DNA of 64,000 nucleotides from Otis tarda (lineage: Eukaryota > Chordata > Aves > Otidiformes > Otididae), in assembly GCA_026413225.1 (NCBI GenBank), contig CM048552.1:137219053-137283052 (forward strand), given 5' to 3'. Positions 19,266 to 61,500 of the stretch are shown one piece after another. Position 1 is the first letter of the stretch. Each line of letters starts with the position of its first letter. The notes under the pieces were generated by a model, which did not search any database, had not been told where the DNA came from, and was given only the letters and a program-made list of their open reading frames with translations. Position numbers and translations under genes: made by a program.

Positions 19266-19375
19266 GATTTATGTGGTCCATATAATAAACTCCAATCTGT
19301 TGATCGTAAACAGTTTCCCATCCTAAAGGAAGCTCATCACCGACACAGTCAGCAAATGTCAATGGCTTTGTAATC
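19266..19375 (-). CDS. WWC3: WWC3 coding exon 2: linker and most of WW domain 2
   Basis: The exon holds 110 nt: the last base of Arg71, codons 72-107, and the first base of Gln108. The acceptor reads TACAG and the donor is GTGAGT. It encodes the short linker [16 protein letters not shown] and then WW domain 2 with its first tryptophan (W90 in [10 protein letters not shown]), the tyrosine pair Y101-Y102 and DHIN. This linker and the tight spacing of the two WW domains are a hallmark of the WWC family. It follows a 38 kb first intron. No frameshift or stop is present, and the phase matches both neighbours. Confidence 0.96.
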
Positions 19376-24346: not shown

Positions 24347-24392
24347 AAAAAAAAAAAAAAAAAAACCAAAAAAAAAAACCAAAACACCACCA
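24347..24392. repeat. A-rich tract with CC interruptions
   Basis: Nineteen A followed by CC, A10, CC, AAAA and CACCACC. It is one of about a dozen similar A/C-rich tracts in the gene and encodes nothing. Confidence 0.9.
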
Positions 24393-31362: not shown

Positions 31363-32945
31363 TAATTTCTAAGCTTTTGATTCTCAACATTCTCAACATA
31401 CCAGTCATGAATACAAATTCATATAATCAACAAATAAATAATGTTAATGCAGGTGTTGAGGAGAAGAGTCTCTAAAATATGTACTTAAAAATCTTATCCA
31501 GGCTGACCTTCTTGTCAGTTGGTAATTTTCAAGCTTTTAGGAAAACTTAACCCCTGCTTTCCCAACATTTATTTATCCCAGTATTACTACCATTCCCCAA
31601 ATACATTTGTCTCCTACAGTCCTCCTTAATGTTGGTCTTGCAAACTAATGCAGTGTATTCCCCAATCAATATTAGTAATTTAGTAATATATCCTAAAGAT
31701 CTGTAAAACTGTCTTTTTCTATGTTCATCTGAAATTTTTTAAGAAATTGAAGTTATGAAGTTTGATGCTCTTACTTCTATGGTTGCCAGTAGTTGTGCAA
31801 TATATTATATCTAAGCTCCAAGCTAGACCAATAAAGTACTTCCAAGTGAGTAATATGAAGGATTACTCAAAATTTTTCCACACGCTTTTGCTAAAATACA
31901 AGAATAGAAAATACTTTGTGAAAAATCCAGAGAAATCCAGCCAGATAATGTACTTTTTATAAACAGCAGTAGTGTGATAAGAAAGAAAAAAAAAAAAATC
32001 ACCTTAACAACCTTCTGAAACCCAATATAAAAAGTATTTAGAACTATTAGAAATACTCATTTTCAGTATAAGAAGTTTAATCAAAAAGTAAGACAGTACA
32101 AGTAATGTTTTGGATTTTTAACACTAGTTTCAGATCTACCAAAAAATTGAAAAGTTAAAAAACCAAACAAAAACACAAAACCCACCCAAAAATAACAAAA
32201 AAACCCACCCAAAAAATAATCGACAACAGAAAGCACAATTACAGAATCAGACCTACACTGATCTTAATTTGAACTGAACATCCACAAGTAACAAATACCT
32301 CTTCACTAAAACAGCAGTGAAAATGAGATTAAACTTACACAGTAACATACTAAAGAGACTTCAACAGTAGATGGCCTCCTCTTCTTCCTCCTCATCTCCC
32401 ATGATTGAGGTTAAAAATAGAAGCTTCCGTTTCCTTACATTATTTCGCTTTAAACTTTTCTAGAACACTGAAATTAGCTACTTTGCCAGCTTCCTACATT
32501 TGTGTTAGAAAAGAGGGAGTGTTAAAAACACACTTCCATTTACAGCATCTCAGGAAACTGACTTCTGTGGTTTGCATTATTATCATTCATAAATGACAAG
32601 CCCCTGTAGAAATTGTAGGTGTCTCTTCCAAAGATTGCCTTTGGATATAGCTCACCCAAAGGCCCCTTGCACCACCTAGTAACATGTTTCGGGGATAATC
32701 TTCCATACTTGCATATTTTTTCTATATTTATGCATTCCTTTGCAGTTAGTAAATGTAGGTATCTTCAGTGCACAATGTTCAATTCCACATATCCAAGAGC
32801 AGTTCCAGTACTAGGAAGAAGAGCTTAAGAGCCACAGAAAGCCAGCTTCAGCTCACTCCCTCCCGGCCCTGCGCCTTCGAGGAAGTCAGATCTGCAAGAA
32901 GCCTCGGATTTCCACCACGGCAGCACAGTGGCCCCAGCTGTCGAG

Positions 32946-37249: not shown

Positions 37250-37330
37250 AAAAAAAAAAAAAAAAAAAAAAAAAAAGAAAACCACTAAAAAAAAAACCCC
37301 ACAAAAAAACCCAAACAAACAAACAAAAAC
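37250..37330. repeat. A27 and A/C-rich compound tract
   Basis: 27 A at 37250-37276 continue into GAAAACCACT, A10, CCCC, ACA7CCC and AAAC units. It is the same kind of tract as those at 241-297, 42824-42950 and 57118-57153. Confidence 0.93.
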
Positions 37331-39020: not shown

Positions 39021-39156
<136 letters not shown>

Positions 39157-42100: not shown

Positions 42101-42823
42101 TTGTGGTATTTGATATAACTGAGCCCGTGGTTAAAAGGCCTCTCTCCATGACATAAGCAAATACAGTCTATCCTCTGTATTTGTCCGACTTCTCTTCGAC
42201 ATTCAAAGCTAATCTAGTTTTAGGTCAGGAAAAAGACTGCGGTCTATCATTTTAAACAAACCATTGTAGTAAAATGTGAACAGGAAATTCCTAACTACAC
42301 TGTTCAAAGAACAATGATTAGAAAAACAACGCTAGCTCACAAAGTACAAGAAGCCTACGACAGTTTCGGTGGAAAATTTAAAAAAAAAAAAAAATCAAAA
42401 TAAAAATCAAAGACACACATACAGTCACCTTACTCATTTTTTCTTTCCCCCCACCACTCCCCACCGGGGCCAGGGGTCCTTCAGACCTTGCCAAGGGAGA
42501 AACCTTTGGATCTGAAGGGAGAAGAGTGCAGTATATACAGCTCTGTCTGATACCTTGGAAATATCCGGCCTGCGGGAGTTAGAGCAGGCATGCCATTCAT
42601 TCCACAACATATAAATGCCCTCTTTAGAGCCTCATCTAAGCAGCAGTTTCATTTGGATTTTGAGGCACAGGTCTGCCTTGTTTTTCAATAAGCTGCAAGC
42701 TATTTTTACCATTTAAAAAAAAATAATAAAATAACCAACATTTTAAAAGTATGCCTGCTAGCATACAGAGAGTATATAAAATGGGTAAAATGTGAACTTG
42801 AGGAAAATCTCCTGCACTAGCAA

Positions 42824-42950
42824 AAAAAAAAAAACAAAAAAAAAACCAAAAAAAACCACCACAAAAAGACAACACACACACAAAAACCTTACAAAAAACA
42901 AACCAACAAAAAACAAACCCCCAAAACCTAAACACCCAAAACCCATGTAT
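42824..42950. repeat. Long A/C-rich compound tract
   Basis: About 125 bp almost free of G and T on the plus strand: A12, then A10, then CCAAAAAAAACCACCAC, ACACAC and AAACAAACC-type units. On the sense strand of WWC3 it is T/G-rich. The ORFs across it are low-complexity Phe/Gly/Val/Cys artefacts. Confidence 0.93.
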
Positions 42951-57117: not shown

Positions 57118-57153
57118 AAAAAAAAAAAAAAAAAACCAACCAAAAAAACCCTC
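57118..57153. repeat. A18 with CCAACC extension near exon 1
   Basis: A run of 18 A followed by CCAACCAAAAAAACC, about 420-450 bp inside intron 1 and next to the left border of the CpG island. Confidence 0.93.
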
Positions 57154-57393
57154 AATTCCTCAGTTTTTTAATTTAATTTTACACGGCAAACTCGTCAGCC
57201 GCTGGGGTAGGGGCTCGCTCCCCCTCAGGTCTCCACAGGCAGCGGCCGAGGGCCGGTGTGACAGGGCTCCCCCCCCCGCCCCCCAGCTCGCCTTCCCGCC
57301 TCGGGGCGAAGGGAGGCACCGGCGGCCCCACCGCCCACACCCTCCCCGCGGCCACGGCCGGGGGAAGGAAAATGTCGCCGACGGGCCCGGCCC

Positions 57394-57483
57394 GGCCGCC
57401 GAGGGGGAGAGGGCGCGGGGAGAAGGGGACGGGAAGAGGCCTCCCCGTCCCCTTCTCCCCGCGCCCTCTCCCCCTCGGCGGCC
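57394..57483. repeat. Perfect 40-bp inverted repeat with a 10-bp centre
   Basis: Bases 57394-57433 and 57444-57483 are exact reverse complements over 40 positions, checked base by base. The centre 57434-57443 does not continue the pairing. The left arm is purine-rich (it includes GAGGGGGAGAGGG) and the right arm is the pyrimidine-rich mirror. It lies 87-177 nt into intron 1, so the pre-mRNA can fold into a 40-bp GC-rich hairpin. It could be a recent fold-back template-switch event or a sequencing/assembly artefact. Confidence 0.93.
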
Positions 57484-57570
57484 AGGCCGGCGCCCGGTGG
57501 GGTGCACCGTGCTCGGGCCCTCCTTTCGCCGGGATCCCCCTCCGTTCGCCGGCGGCTCCCCGCTCCTCAC

Positions 57571-57782
57571 CTGTCCCGGGGGTCGATCCACGAGGTTTGC
57601 CGGGTGTTATGGTCGATGTAAAAGACTCGCCCGTCGAAGTCCCTCGCTTCCTCCCAACCGGCGGGCAGCGGTAGCTCCGAGCTCTCCCGGCCCCGCTGCC
57701 CGCCCGCCGGCGGCCCGCCGCCCTGTCCCGCCGCCACTTGCTGCTGCTGCCGCCGCCGCCGCCCGCCGCTCAACCACGGCAT
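57571..57782 (-). CDS. WWC3: WWC3 coding exon 1: N-terminal leader and first WW domain
   Basis: The exon holds 212 nt, residues 1-70 plus two bases of Arg71. The start is the first in-frame ATG (57782-57780), with G at -3 and C at +4, which is a fair Kozak context. The leader is low complexity: MPWLSGG, then an Arg run and QQQQ encoded by a CGG/CAG repeat, then Gly/Pro. WW domain 1 covers about residues 36-69, with both signature tryptophans (W43, W65), the aromatic core FYIDHNT and the closing proline P68. It should therefore bind PPxY motifs; LATS and AMOT are known partners of the family. The exon ends in GACAG and is followed by the donor GTGAGG at 57570. It sits inside the CpG island. 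The frame stays open upstream of the ATG but contains no other ATG. Confidence 0.95.
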
Positions 57783-57922
57783 GGCCGCTCCGCCGCCGGG
57801 CCGCCGCCACCGCCCAGCTCCGGCCGAAACCCGCTCCCCGCCCGCCGCCGGGGCAGCTCCCGTCCCGCCCGGGCCGCGGCCGCCCGCCGCCTCCTCCTCC
57901 TCTTCCTCCTCCTCCTCCAGCA

Positions 57923-57985
57923 CTAACAGGCGGCCCCGCAGGGAGCGGGACTCAGGCGGCTCCGGCTGCGCCGCGCCGGGCTCAT
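57923..57985 (-). promoter_or_regulatory. Upstream ORF 2 in the WWC3 leader (20 codons)
   Basis: ATG at 57985-57983 has A at -3 and A at +4. It opens 20 codons beginning [10 protein letters not shown] and ends with TAG at 57923. It is out of frame with the WWC3 start about 140 nt downstream. It is the only upstream ATG between upstream ORF 1 and the main start. Confidence 0.4.
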
Positions 57986-58123
57986 CCTCCCCAGCGCCAG
58001 CCCCGCTCCGCGCCGGGACCAGCCCCGCTGCGCTTCCTAACCCCGCCCGGGACCTGCCCCGCTCCGCCGCGGCTCCCAGCCCCCGAGCTCGGCCCGCCGG
58101 CCTGAGCGCCCCCGCCCCGCCGC

Positions 58124-58180
58124 TCAGCAGCGCCCCGCCGTCGCCTCCCCCCGCTCCCGCCCGGCGCCTGCCCCGGCCAT
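58124..58180 (-). promoter_or_regulatory. Upstream ORF 1 in the WWC3 leader (18 codons)
   Basis: ATG at 58180-58178 lies within the TISU-like element in a strong context (A at -3, G at +4). It opens 18 codons ([18 protein letters not shown]) ending in TGA. It is out of frame with WWC3 and stops about 340 nt before the main ATG. If the mRNA starts above it, it would probably reduce initiation at the main start. Confidence 0.4.
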
Positions 58181-58184
58181 CTTC
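58173..58184 (-). promoter_or_regulatory. YY1 / TISU-like element in the WWC3 leader
   Basis: On the minus strand the bases read GAAGATGGCCGG. The core AAGATGGC is a YY1 site, and the whole is close to the TISU consensus (SAASATGGCGGC), a promoter-proximal element that also serves as a start codon for very short leaders. Such sites sit just downstream of transcription starts, so this one suggests a start within a few tens of bases above 58184. The identification is by motif only. Confidence 0.5.
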
Positions 58185-58530
58185 CCTCCCTTCCTCCGCC
58201 AAGGCCCGGCCCCCACCTCCGCCCCGCCTGGCTGTTCCCACGCCGCGGAGGGCTGGGCCGGGGGAAGGAGTTTGGAAGGGTCCTCCCGCCGCGGCCCCTT
58301 CCCCGGTCCCGGCCCAGCCCGGCCTGCGGGGGTGGAGGGAAGCGGCGGGGCCCGACCGGGCGGGTGCACCCCGCGCCGCGGAAACCGGGCCCGAACCCAG
58401 ACACGTCGGCTACGGAGAGAGGGCGGCGGCCGTCCGGCCTGTGCCCGGGCCGGGGGAAGGTGGTTGTGGCCTCAGCGGGGCCCGTCCTGTCCCGCCCCGG
58501 GGTCTGTGCTCTGCCACGGCCTGTTGGGGA

Positions 58531-61500
58531 CCGGGAGGGCGAAGGAAAAGGGGAGCCATGCCATGCCTGGCCTTCCCAGGGCCATGCATCCCACAGTGCC
58601 CACCCGAAAAGCCTCGGGGGTGCCGAGCAATCTGCATGCGTGCAGGGACGGGGCTCCAGCACAGGGCCAGGAAAGGTGATGGAGGAGAGGTGTTGAAGGC
58701 CATGCCAGTCACGGCGATCGTGCTGTAATGATGCTCAGATAATGGATGGTGGAAAATTACACACCCATCTCTCTTGACATCTCAACCCGGTCCCTTAACC
58801 TCAGCCTGTAGAGCTGACAGCAGCTGTGTCTGATTTGACCTGAGCCTGTTGCAGACCACGATGCAGAGTTCCAGCTACCACCTAGAATTAAATTCCCCAA
58901 AACTTAGTCAGAACAGAGTTAAAGTTGGCCTGTGGTACTCCGTGCCTTTCCAGGATGCTGACTTCAGCTAAACCTTTGAAAATCTGGAAATAAAGTGTTA
59001 AGGTAATGCAGGCTAAGCTTCTGAAAACTAGGAAAGGAGCTAACTATATTCTCAAACAACCTTAACCCAGCCCCCTGAAATTGCCAAGAACCTGCCAGGG
59101 ATTATATTGCATTTTCAATTATGTTTCACTTGCATTCACCGTTTTAAGTTACAGCTCTGTGAACATGAATTGGGGCAATGTGGTGATAAATGCAGAAAAT
59201 TAGAGGACTTCTGCTTCTGAATTCTTAGGCCTTTATCTCTCTTTTATTCCAGCCCCTCCCCAGTAGTTATCAAAGAACAGAGCAGTGCATGAGAGAGGCA
59301 GTATAGACAACAGGACAGATCGGGCATTTTACCTATGTTTTGCAGGTTATTTCCATAGTAGTAGACTGGAGTCTTCTTCCCAGGGCTGTTGTCAGCAGTG
59401 AGGTGTGATAGGAGAGTAATATGTGGGTTTAGTGATGAAAGCAAAGCAGTGTATGAAGCTCTGAGGTCAATGGTGAAGTAGATTAAAAATGTGGTAAAGG
59501 TGTAAAATTTAGCACATGCAAGGTTGTAGGTCTGACCTGCAAAAGCACGACAGCTTACATTTGGATCAGTTCGTCTCAACAGAGGTTTCGCTTCAGCAAA
59601 CGCTGAGTGTTAGGCTGTCTCATGTGGTCCCACGAGCTCAGCAGTATCTCCAGGAGCACAGTGCTGCTTGTGTGTTACAGATGTTTTTGAGGCATATCTC
59701 AGAGGGCAGAGTTAAGGCACGGTGCAAACTCTGTTTTTCAGTGGTTGCAGTTTCTATTATTTTAAGCATGTCTCCCAGATTTTCAGAGGTTTTATTTAGC
59801 AGAGATAGGCGCTCTCAAATGGCCCAAGTCTATATTAACAACGTTTTGGGACACTGGATTTTCTTAAAAAAAAAAAACAAACAACTTTTTTTAAAAAAAA
59901 AAACAACTGTCCTCTGTGCACCACAGCTCAACTCTCCCTTCATTGCTTCTAATGTCCTTCCAGCAATTACCTTAGCACAATGTCTGTACAGCACAGCACC
60001 ATGCCAAGACATGGTTCATAATACCTGGAAGCAGAAGAGCTAGGTTGCTATAATAATCCATCAAGACTAATTAGCCCTGCTGAGGATACGTGCAGCATCA
60101 CCCTCCAACATGGGCTGGTTCTTCCTTATCAGTCCCCAGAGTCTCAAGAGCGGGTAGAGAAAAGTAAAGAACCTATAGACAGAGGTTGCAGAAGCAGTGC
60201 GGGAGTTACCATGGAAGCAGCAAAAAGATTTCAAATGGAGGTGGGGAGCTCAACACAGCAGTGGGCAAGAGGGGAAATGACGGGACTGTGTGGAACGTTT
60301 CATTCAGCTCATAGCCCGTCGACTATGTTCTGTTCTTAACTTTAGCAAATTGCTCCAGCTTAGAGCCAGAAAAGGACTTGGCTGGGCTGTGGTTTCTCAG
60401 GCAGAATTATGACGCACATGTTCCGTGTAAAACATGAGCTGTGTGTCCAGTGGGGCATGGATCGCATGGATTCATTATAAATGCAGTTGAGGATGCCCAT
60501 GCTACTATGTAAAGGACAGGTCCAAGATTTTCAGGTGCACTGTAGCTGCTTCTAAAACTGACAGGTTACATCTCTCTAAACCTTGAACAAACAAGAAAAA
60601 AAAATCCTTAGATTCTGCCTGGGCAAAGTCTGCAGGCTAAACATGAGAACATGTCCAAAAAACCTCAGATTTAAAATTGTCCTAGACTTCAGAGCTAACT
60701 TTTAGGTTGTCTGTATCTAGAAAAATCGTTAGCTTCAGTTAGGAGCTGAAGCTTCTTAAACACTCATGAATAAAGGTGTTCAAAAACCTGATTCTAGGAG
60801 TCCAGCCAGCTGTGCACAGAGCTGCCTACAGTAACCGGTAGGAAATGATAGGGCTAGCAGTTGCCTCACAAGAATAGAAACTACCTCTGTCTGCAGCACG
60901 CTTGTGCCAAGATGCCAGACAGGAACTCTCAATTATTTTTCAGGCCAGAATGATACCCTTCCTCGGATGTTACCTCATCCTTCTGCCTGTTCCTAGGGAG
61001 CAAACAAACAAAGCGTTCAGGAGCCAAGGATTATTTTTGAGTAACATGAAAAGGCAAGAAGAGAAGAACCTGAAAAAGTCACTGTAGTTTTCATCCCAAC
61101 GCACTAATTTGCAATGCTTTTTGTGCCATCCTTACCCTGCAATGAAACCCTCCTGAGCCTGCATCACTGCTCCCTCCCTTTTATTTTCCCTTCCTCTTCA
61201 ATGTTTGTCATGCTTCAAGAGGGTAAAGGGAAACAAAGGGATGGTGAACCCAGTGCACACAACATATCCCTGTTTTGGGTTGCAGAAGGAAGCCCCTCTG
61301 CCAAACAAAGACAACCTGTGTAGTATGGAACAGGTCATAACATGGAAGATTTCTGCTTAGAAGAGATGGAAGTCTGCCATAGGAAATTAAATGCTTTCAG
61401 TGCCTATTTTAATCAATCTGCACAAATGCTAATATATCATATTTCATATTCAGGTATATATACTTAAATTTACATCAATCCCTTTTCTCAGTTATATCTT

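Follow-up and report, generated by a model that had tools for sequence, protein, structure and literature searches.

Genomic setting of the repeat

The window, that is, the whole 64-kb stretch of DNA that was analysed, carries the beginning of a WW-domain gene on its minus strand. We take this gene to be WWC3 and not another WWC gene. The translation of the coding part of exon 1 (minus strand, 57782-57571) starts MPWLSGG and ends in a split codon, and exon 2, which carries the second WW domain, begins at 19375. KIBRA is found among the solved relatives of the exon-1 protein at 2.6e-23; two NEDD4-type ligases, with four matched stretches each, outscore it. No relatives of the exon-1 protein were recovered among 54 pattern matches in the set viral_contigs or among 593 in the set genome_contigs, as expected for viruses and prokaryotes. 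The original prediction had placed an inverted repeat at the start of intron 1 of this gene, and the Pfam WW match, the donor and the position of exon 2 from 19375 agree with that reading, with WWC3 as the putative name of the gene. The distance given there is also correct: with the donor GTGAGG at 57570, the right arm of the repeat, which is the first to be transcribed, begins 87 nt downstream (57484-57570 separates the two). The repeat lies in a CpG island that is C-rich on the plus strand, and GC content is 72-83% in each 200-nt step across 57200-58599. The features referred to below are as follows.

19376-57570, minus strand: intron 1, 38,195 nt, with acceptor TTTTTACAG and a frame-compatible continuation into exon 2
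57382-57386, plus strand: five further left-arm bases past a 1-nt gap, 5/5 paired in the gapped alignment
57387-57393, plus strand: outer extension of the left arm, a mismatch at 57393 and then 6 pairs
57394-57433, plus strand: left arm, perfect 40-bp core, G-rich on the plus strand and probably the reverse copy
57403-57428, plus strand: G-quadruplex motif in the left arm (pattern match), the same motif as in the right arm on the opposite strand
57434-57443, plus strand: 10-nt centre; in the folded minus strand, a 4-nt loop (57437-57440) with one G.U and two Watson-Crick pairs
57444-57483, plus strand: right arm, perfect 40-bp core, C-rich on the plus strand and G-rich in the pre-mRNA, probably the native copy
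57449-57474, minus strand: G-quadruplex motif in the right arm (pattern match), on the pre-mRNA strand
57484-57490, plus strand: outer extension of the right arm, a mismatch at 57484 and then 6 pairs
57492-57496, plus strand: five further right-arm bases past the 1-nt gap, 5/5 paired in the gapped alignment
57571-57782, minus strand: coding part of exon 1 of the WW-domain gene (Pfam WW, E 7.3e-14; translation; donor GTGAGG at 57570-57565)

Several simple repeats share the locus. Intron 1 contains a perfect GA dinucleotide array of 61 copies (39034-39155, 100% matches) and, on its plus strand, A-rich tracts with interspersed C (AAAAACC-like) at 24347-24389, 32158-32216, 37250-37324 and 42823-42941; a tract at 57118-57150 resembles these. 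A CCT repeat (57890-57918, 92% matches) lies upstream of the start codon, and octamers typical of the ends of the bird element CR1 occur in five places, in four forms, and carry no information on the species. Tandem Repeats Finder, which returned 18 rows for the window, reports no array at 57394-57483, and a tandem-repeat origin of the inverted repeat was rejected.

Extent of the pairing, chance and age

The segments 57394-57433 and 57444-57483 are exact reverse complements (40/40) around a 10-nt centre, 57434-57443; direct comparison gives the same count as the original prediction. We ran 300 first-order Markov simulations of the CpG island, using a model whose training sequence contained the repeat; with loops of up to 100 nt allowed, their longest perfect arm measured 14 bp (average 9.9). 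Base composition of the island with the repeat left out gives a chance of 0.319 that any two positions pair, and 0.319^40 is 1.4e-20. Taken together, the simulations and the composition figure rule out a chance origin of the perfect 40-bp arms. Nowhere else in the 64-kb window do the arms of a perfect inverted repeat reach 14 bp at loop lengths up to 100 nt, and a scan for ungapped imperfect inverted repeats (+1/-2, total span to roughly 300 nt) yields no second one with a score of 16 or higher. In a blastn-short search (E up to 1) the arms match each other, and none of their further matches in the window is longer than 11 bp, so the repeat is not a mobile element with copies there; for a foldback or MITE transposon, the window offers no second copy.

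The pairing continues past the core in both directions. Without gaps the arms extend to 57387-57436 and 57441-57490, with 48 of 50 positions paired (96% complementary), 4 nt between the arms and mismatches at 57434/57443 (A/C) and 57393/57484 (C/A). Allowing a gap, 57382-57386 pairs with 57492-57496 at all five positions, leaving 57491 unpaired. The earlier statement that the arms show no divergence thus stands for the 40-bp core and fails outside it, where the longer arms pair at 48 of 50 positions and a 1-nt gap follows. There is a general trap here: a perfect inverted repeat that has been trimmed at its mismatches will seem undiverged though the surrounding arms differ.

The outer extension is unlikely to have arisen by chance. 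Of 5,000 pairs of flanks sampled at random from the CpG island, 3,509 start with a mismatch, as the repeat's own flanks do; only two of these 3,509 align as well as the outer extension. In an ungapped version of the test, at least 6 matches after the first mismatch, the number seen in the repeat, occur in 174 of 137,790 such pairs. The inner extension reaches 2 bp past its mismatch, which could be due to chance. At the outer mismatch the left arm has a C, within a CpG, and the right arm, read in reverse complement, has a T; the difference can be a change that followed the event which created the repeat or a feature of the flanks that preceded it.

Substitution rates of 1.9e-9 and 3e-9 per site per year were used to date the arms. 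If the arms have evolved neutrally, the absence of differences in 40 pairs allows an age of up to 19.7 My at the lower rate (95% bound) and up to 12.5 My at the higher. One substitution in the 52 pairs of 57382-57433 corresponds to 5.1 My (0.13-28.2) at 1.9e-9, and two substitutions in the 50-bp arms to 10.5 My (1.3-38.0), both figures presupposing neutrality and counting outer and inner differences that may predate the event. Since 0/40 is compatible with some 20 My, neither a very recent origin nor maintenance follows from the perfect core. The three origins proposed for it earlier (recent, maintained or artefactual) were the right ones to list, and the perfect core, with about 20 My allowed, forces none of them.

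Folding of the transcript and the G-quadruplex motifs

A long GC-rich hairpin had been predicted for the pre-mRNA, and a very stable fold is what we find. The folding energy of plus-strand RNA across 57384-57493 is -124.6 kcal/mol, whereas its shuffles average -68.2 (z -13.4) and none of 200 goes as low; for minus-strand DNA across 57382-57496 the values are -82.9 and -38.1 (z -13.1, 0/200). The hairpin is retained in the minimum-energy fold of a longer minus-strand RNA running from 57583 to 57300. On the transcribed strand each of the two mismatched positions of the 50-bp stem forms a G.U wobble, where the other strand would have A.C; chance alone gives this outcome with probability 1/4.

The inverted repeat sets the same G-quadruplex motif on both DNA strands. 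Folded alone as RNA (57444-57496), the right arm reaches -24.4 kcal/mol with the quadruplex and -18.0 without it. The whole hairpin (57376-57500) comes to -143.8 whether or not the quadruplex is allowed, so at equilibrium the hairpin prevails. As the G-rich arm is transcribed first, there could be a brief time in which a quadruplex forms. At most, the hairpin would lock a G-rich, quadruplex-capable segment of the pre-mRNA into duplex. Extrusion of a cruciform from the DNA and effects of the structure on elongation or splicing are putative, and we treat them as possibilities. Probably no effect on the gene is needed to account for the repeat, and the hairpin leaves with the 38-kb intron.

Origin of the repeat

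The repeat looks real in the sequence as given, and it is best explained by a known kind of mutation, template switching. We consider it likely that a single germline template-switch (fold-back) event during DNA synthesis produced a short inverted duplication. What favours this reading is the combination of perfect pairing far past chance, a short centre and two different flanks, which is the described signature of such events. A reverse-complement copy well beyond chance is present (40/40 against a simulated maximum of 14), and source and copy lie close together, separated by the 10-nt centre. Copying in the reverse orientation by short-range template switching often yields perfect inverted repeats, according to the excerpted text of PMC7954356, which for great apes puts the median copied length at 12 and the longest at 128. 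The copied length here fits within that published range, though 40 bp is long against the median. Excerpts of PMC8794818 argue that template-switch events can build perfect stems in one step; the largest pattern of this type mentioned in them, of up to 59 bp, failed quality control in that study.

Composition suggests which arm was copied. The 40-mers from outside the repeat, 1,018 in all, overlap and so are not independent; 43 of them equal or exceed the C-skew of the right arm, and a single one has the plus-strand G-skew of the left arm. Strand classifiers of orders 0, 1 and 2, trained on sequence outside the repeat, favour the right arm as native with natural-log ratios of 9.8, 8.6 and 5.6; their held-out accuracy was 83, 86 and 79 of 103 pieces. 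At orders 0 and 1 none of the 103 held-out native pieces has a ratio as extreme as that of the arm, the right way or the wrong way, which marks the arm as unusual in composition in both readings. For order 2, 36 of the 103 native pieces attain the value the right way, and 4 of 103 score as strongly the wrong way. The right arm is thus probably the source and the left arm the copy, the latter probably synthesised on a strand that was being extended the same way as the transcript. For a fork exiting the CpG island this would be the leading strand.

The event may be pictured as follows. While synthesising the mRNA-like strand across the right arm, the G-rich beginning of intron 1, a polymerase would stall just past that arm. 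The nascent 3' end, CCC, would fold back and pair with GGG inside the freshly made arm, around the 10-nt centre, and some 40-50 nt of this arm would then be copied in reverse, giving the left arm. Synthesis would return to the template near the left flank, where GGCC/CCGGCC repeats could serve as microhomology, leaving behind the new left arm and, with it, a hairpin some 50 bp long. The template switch, its direction, its germline and fixed status and its microhomology-guided return are what we infer from the sequence as it now stands.

The outer extension, with its mismatch and indel, fits equally well an older and larger inverted repeat whose core was homogenised later. A quasi-palindrome of about 50-55 bp per arm, perfected in its core by template switching or by gene conversion between the arms, would leave just such an outer part, aligned with one mismatch and one gap to a degree that just 2 of the 3,509 sampled flank pairs attain, and homogenisation of arms is documented in yeast and E. 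coli in the excerpted text of PMC8604942 and PMC7202029. The short outer match may equally be the microhomology that guided the return switch, however, and two differences per 50 pairs require no homogenisation. We regard this history as doubtful; it overlaps with the preferred one in that both involve template switching, so our assessments of the two are not exclusive and do not sum to one. An artefact in which a fold-back chimera in the library, or a wrong gap closure in the assembly of the GC-rich CpG island, added one arm is possible, and we judge it unlikely. A surrounding region of 72-83% GC is hard to sequence. Foldback reads make up about 0.55-0.6% of nanopore genomic reads in the excerpts of PMC12870357, which also cite another study in which they are typically 1-4% and in some cases 20-30%, and whole-genome amplification gives palindromic chimeras (PMC6218980, in excerpt). 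Yet foldback reads are defined in the same excerpts of PMC12870357 as retracing, on the opposite strand, the place they have just read, whereas the copy here ends after about 50 nt and enters a different flank with exon 1 beyond it. Such a turn-back would need two joins, which makes an artefact less likely. PacBio HiFi data contained virtually no foldbacks in the three PacBio samples of PMC12870357 (excerpts), and the window contains no Ns.

A third alternative concerns present function, and as such is compatible with an origin by template switching, the odds of the two being not exclusive. It holds that the hairpin has been selected as RNA, either as a small-RNA precursor or as a structure tuning splicing or elongation where intron 1 begins. 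In its favour are the great stability of the fold relative to its shuffles (z -13.4, as above), the two G.U wobbles on the transcribed strand (chance 1/4) and E-values for microRNA families that go down to 7.9e-10 in a search of 301 bases. Such a z-score, however, comes with any perfect inverted repeat of similar size. No Rfam family reaches its gathering score in the 64-kb window. At 57300-57600 there are 73 Rfam matches of up to E 1, none of which reaches gathering; the strongest, to MIR1858, has 58.5 bits where 137 are required. Of these matches, 70 are to 41 microRNA families, and 29 of those families match both strands, as a bare stem would. We take these sub-threshold matches as matches to a bare stem and rejected a known RNA family. 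A 50-bp stem with a 4-nt loop is also atypical for Drosha and pri-miRNAs. The earlier idea of processing by Drosha- or Dicer-type enzymes accordingly finds no positive support, neither in Rfam at gathering nor in a stem of about 50 bp with a 4-nt loop, and we hold selection on the hairpin to be very improbable. An equally long shot is that a single template switch, by setting an antisense copy directly behind the G-rich, quadruplex-capable element at the intron start, would have turned that element in every nascent transcript from an exposed G-run or quadruplex into a locked duplex some 50 bp long, and would thereby have created in one step a regulator of elongation or of first-intron splicing. 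Were this so, selection on the RNA strand would have left its first trace in the two differences that keep a wobble pair, and a quadruplex-to-duplex switch, if demonstrated, would offer a natural test of the role of G-rich elements at intron starts.

If real, the repeat is a clean and long example of how one replication error can create a perfect hairpin in a transcribed, GC-rich, promoter-proximal region, and one in which the likelier native arm can be recognised by composition. Lying in a G-rich control region, it offers a tidy test case, with any function putative. Our literature searches covered template switching, assembly artefacts, the WWC3 intron and chicken, avian rates, first-intron quadruplexes, and palindromes and bird genomes; we noticed no prior report of the repeat in the titles and abstract openings among the matches listed, which is not proof that it is unpublished.

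Several known systems invite comparison. Intronic microRNA precursors likewise have a long intramolecular stem in a transcribed intron; the stem here is longer and the loop tiny, and there is no Rfam match at gathering. Quasi-palindrome correction, as presented in the excerpts of PMC8604942, PMC7202029 and PMC3820800, resembles our case in leaving a perfect core inside a longer imperfect inverted repeat, but here the imperfect part is short and may be no more than guiding microhomology. Fold-back read artefacts resemble the repeat in that an inverted copy abuts its source, with hardly any spacer or none; unlike the repeat, the artefact as described in the excerpts of PMC12870357 has no return into a different flank. 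Short-range template switch mutations, described by a four-point model, are like the repeat in combining a local reverse-complement copy, perfect arms, a short centre and different flanks (excerpts of PMC7954356 and PMC8794818). The repeat differs from these in its copied length, at least 40 against a great-ape median of 12 (maximum 128).
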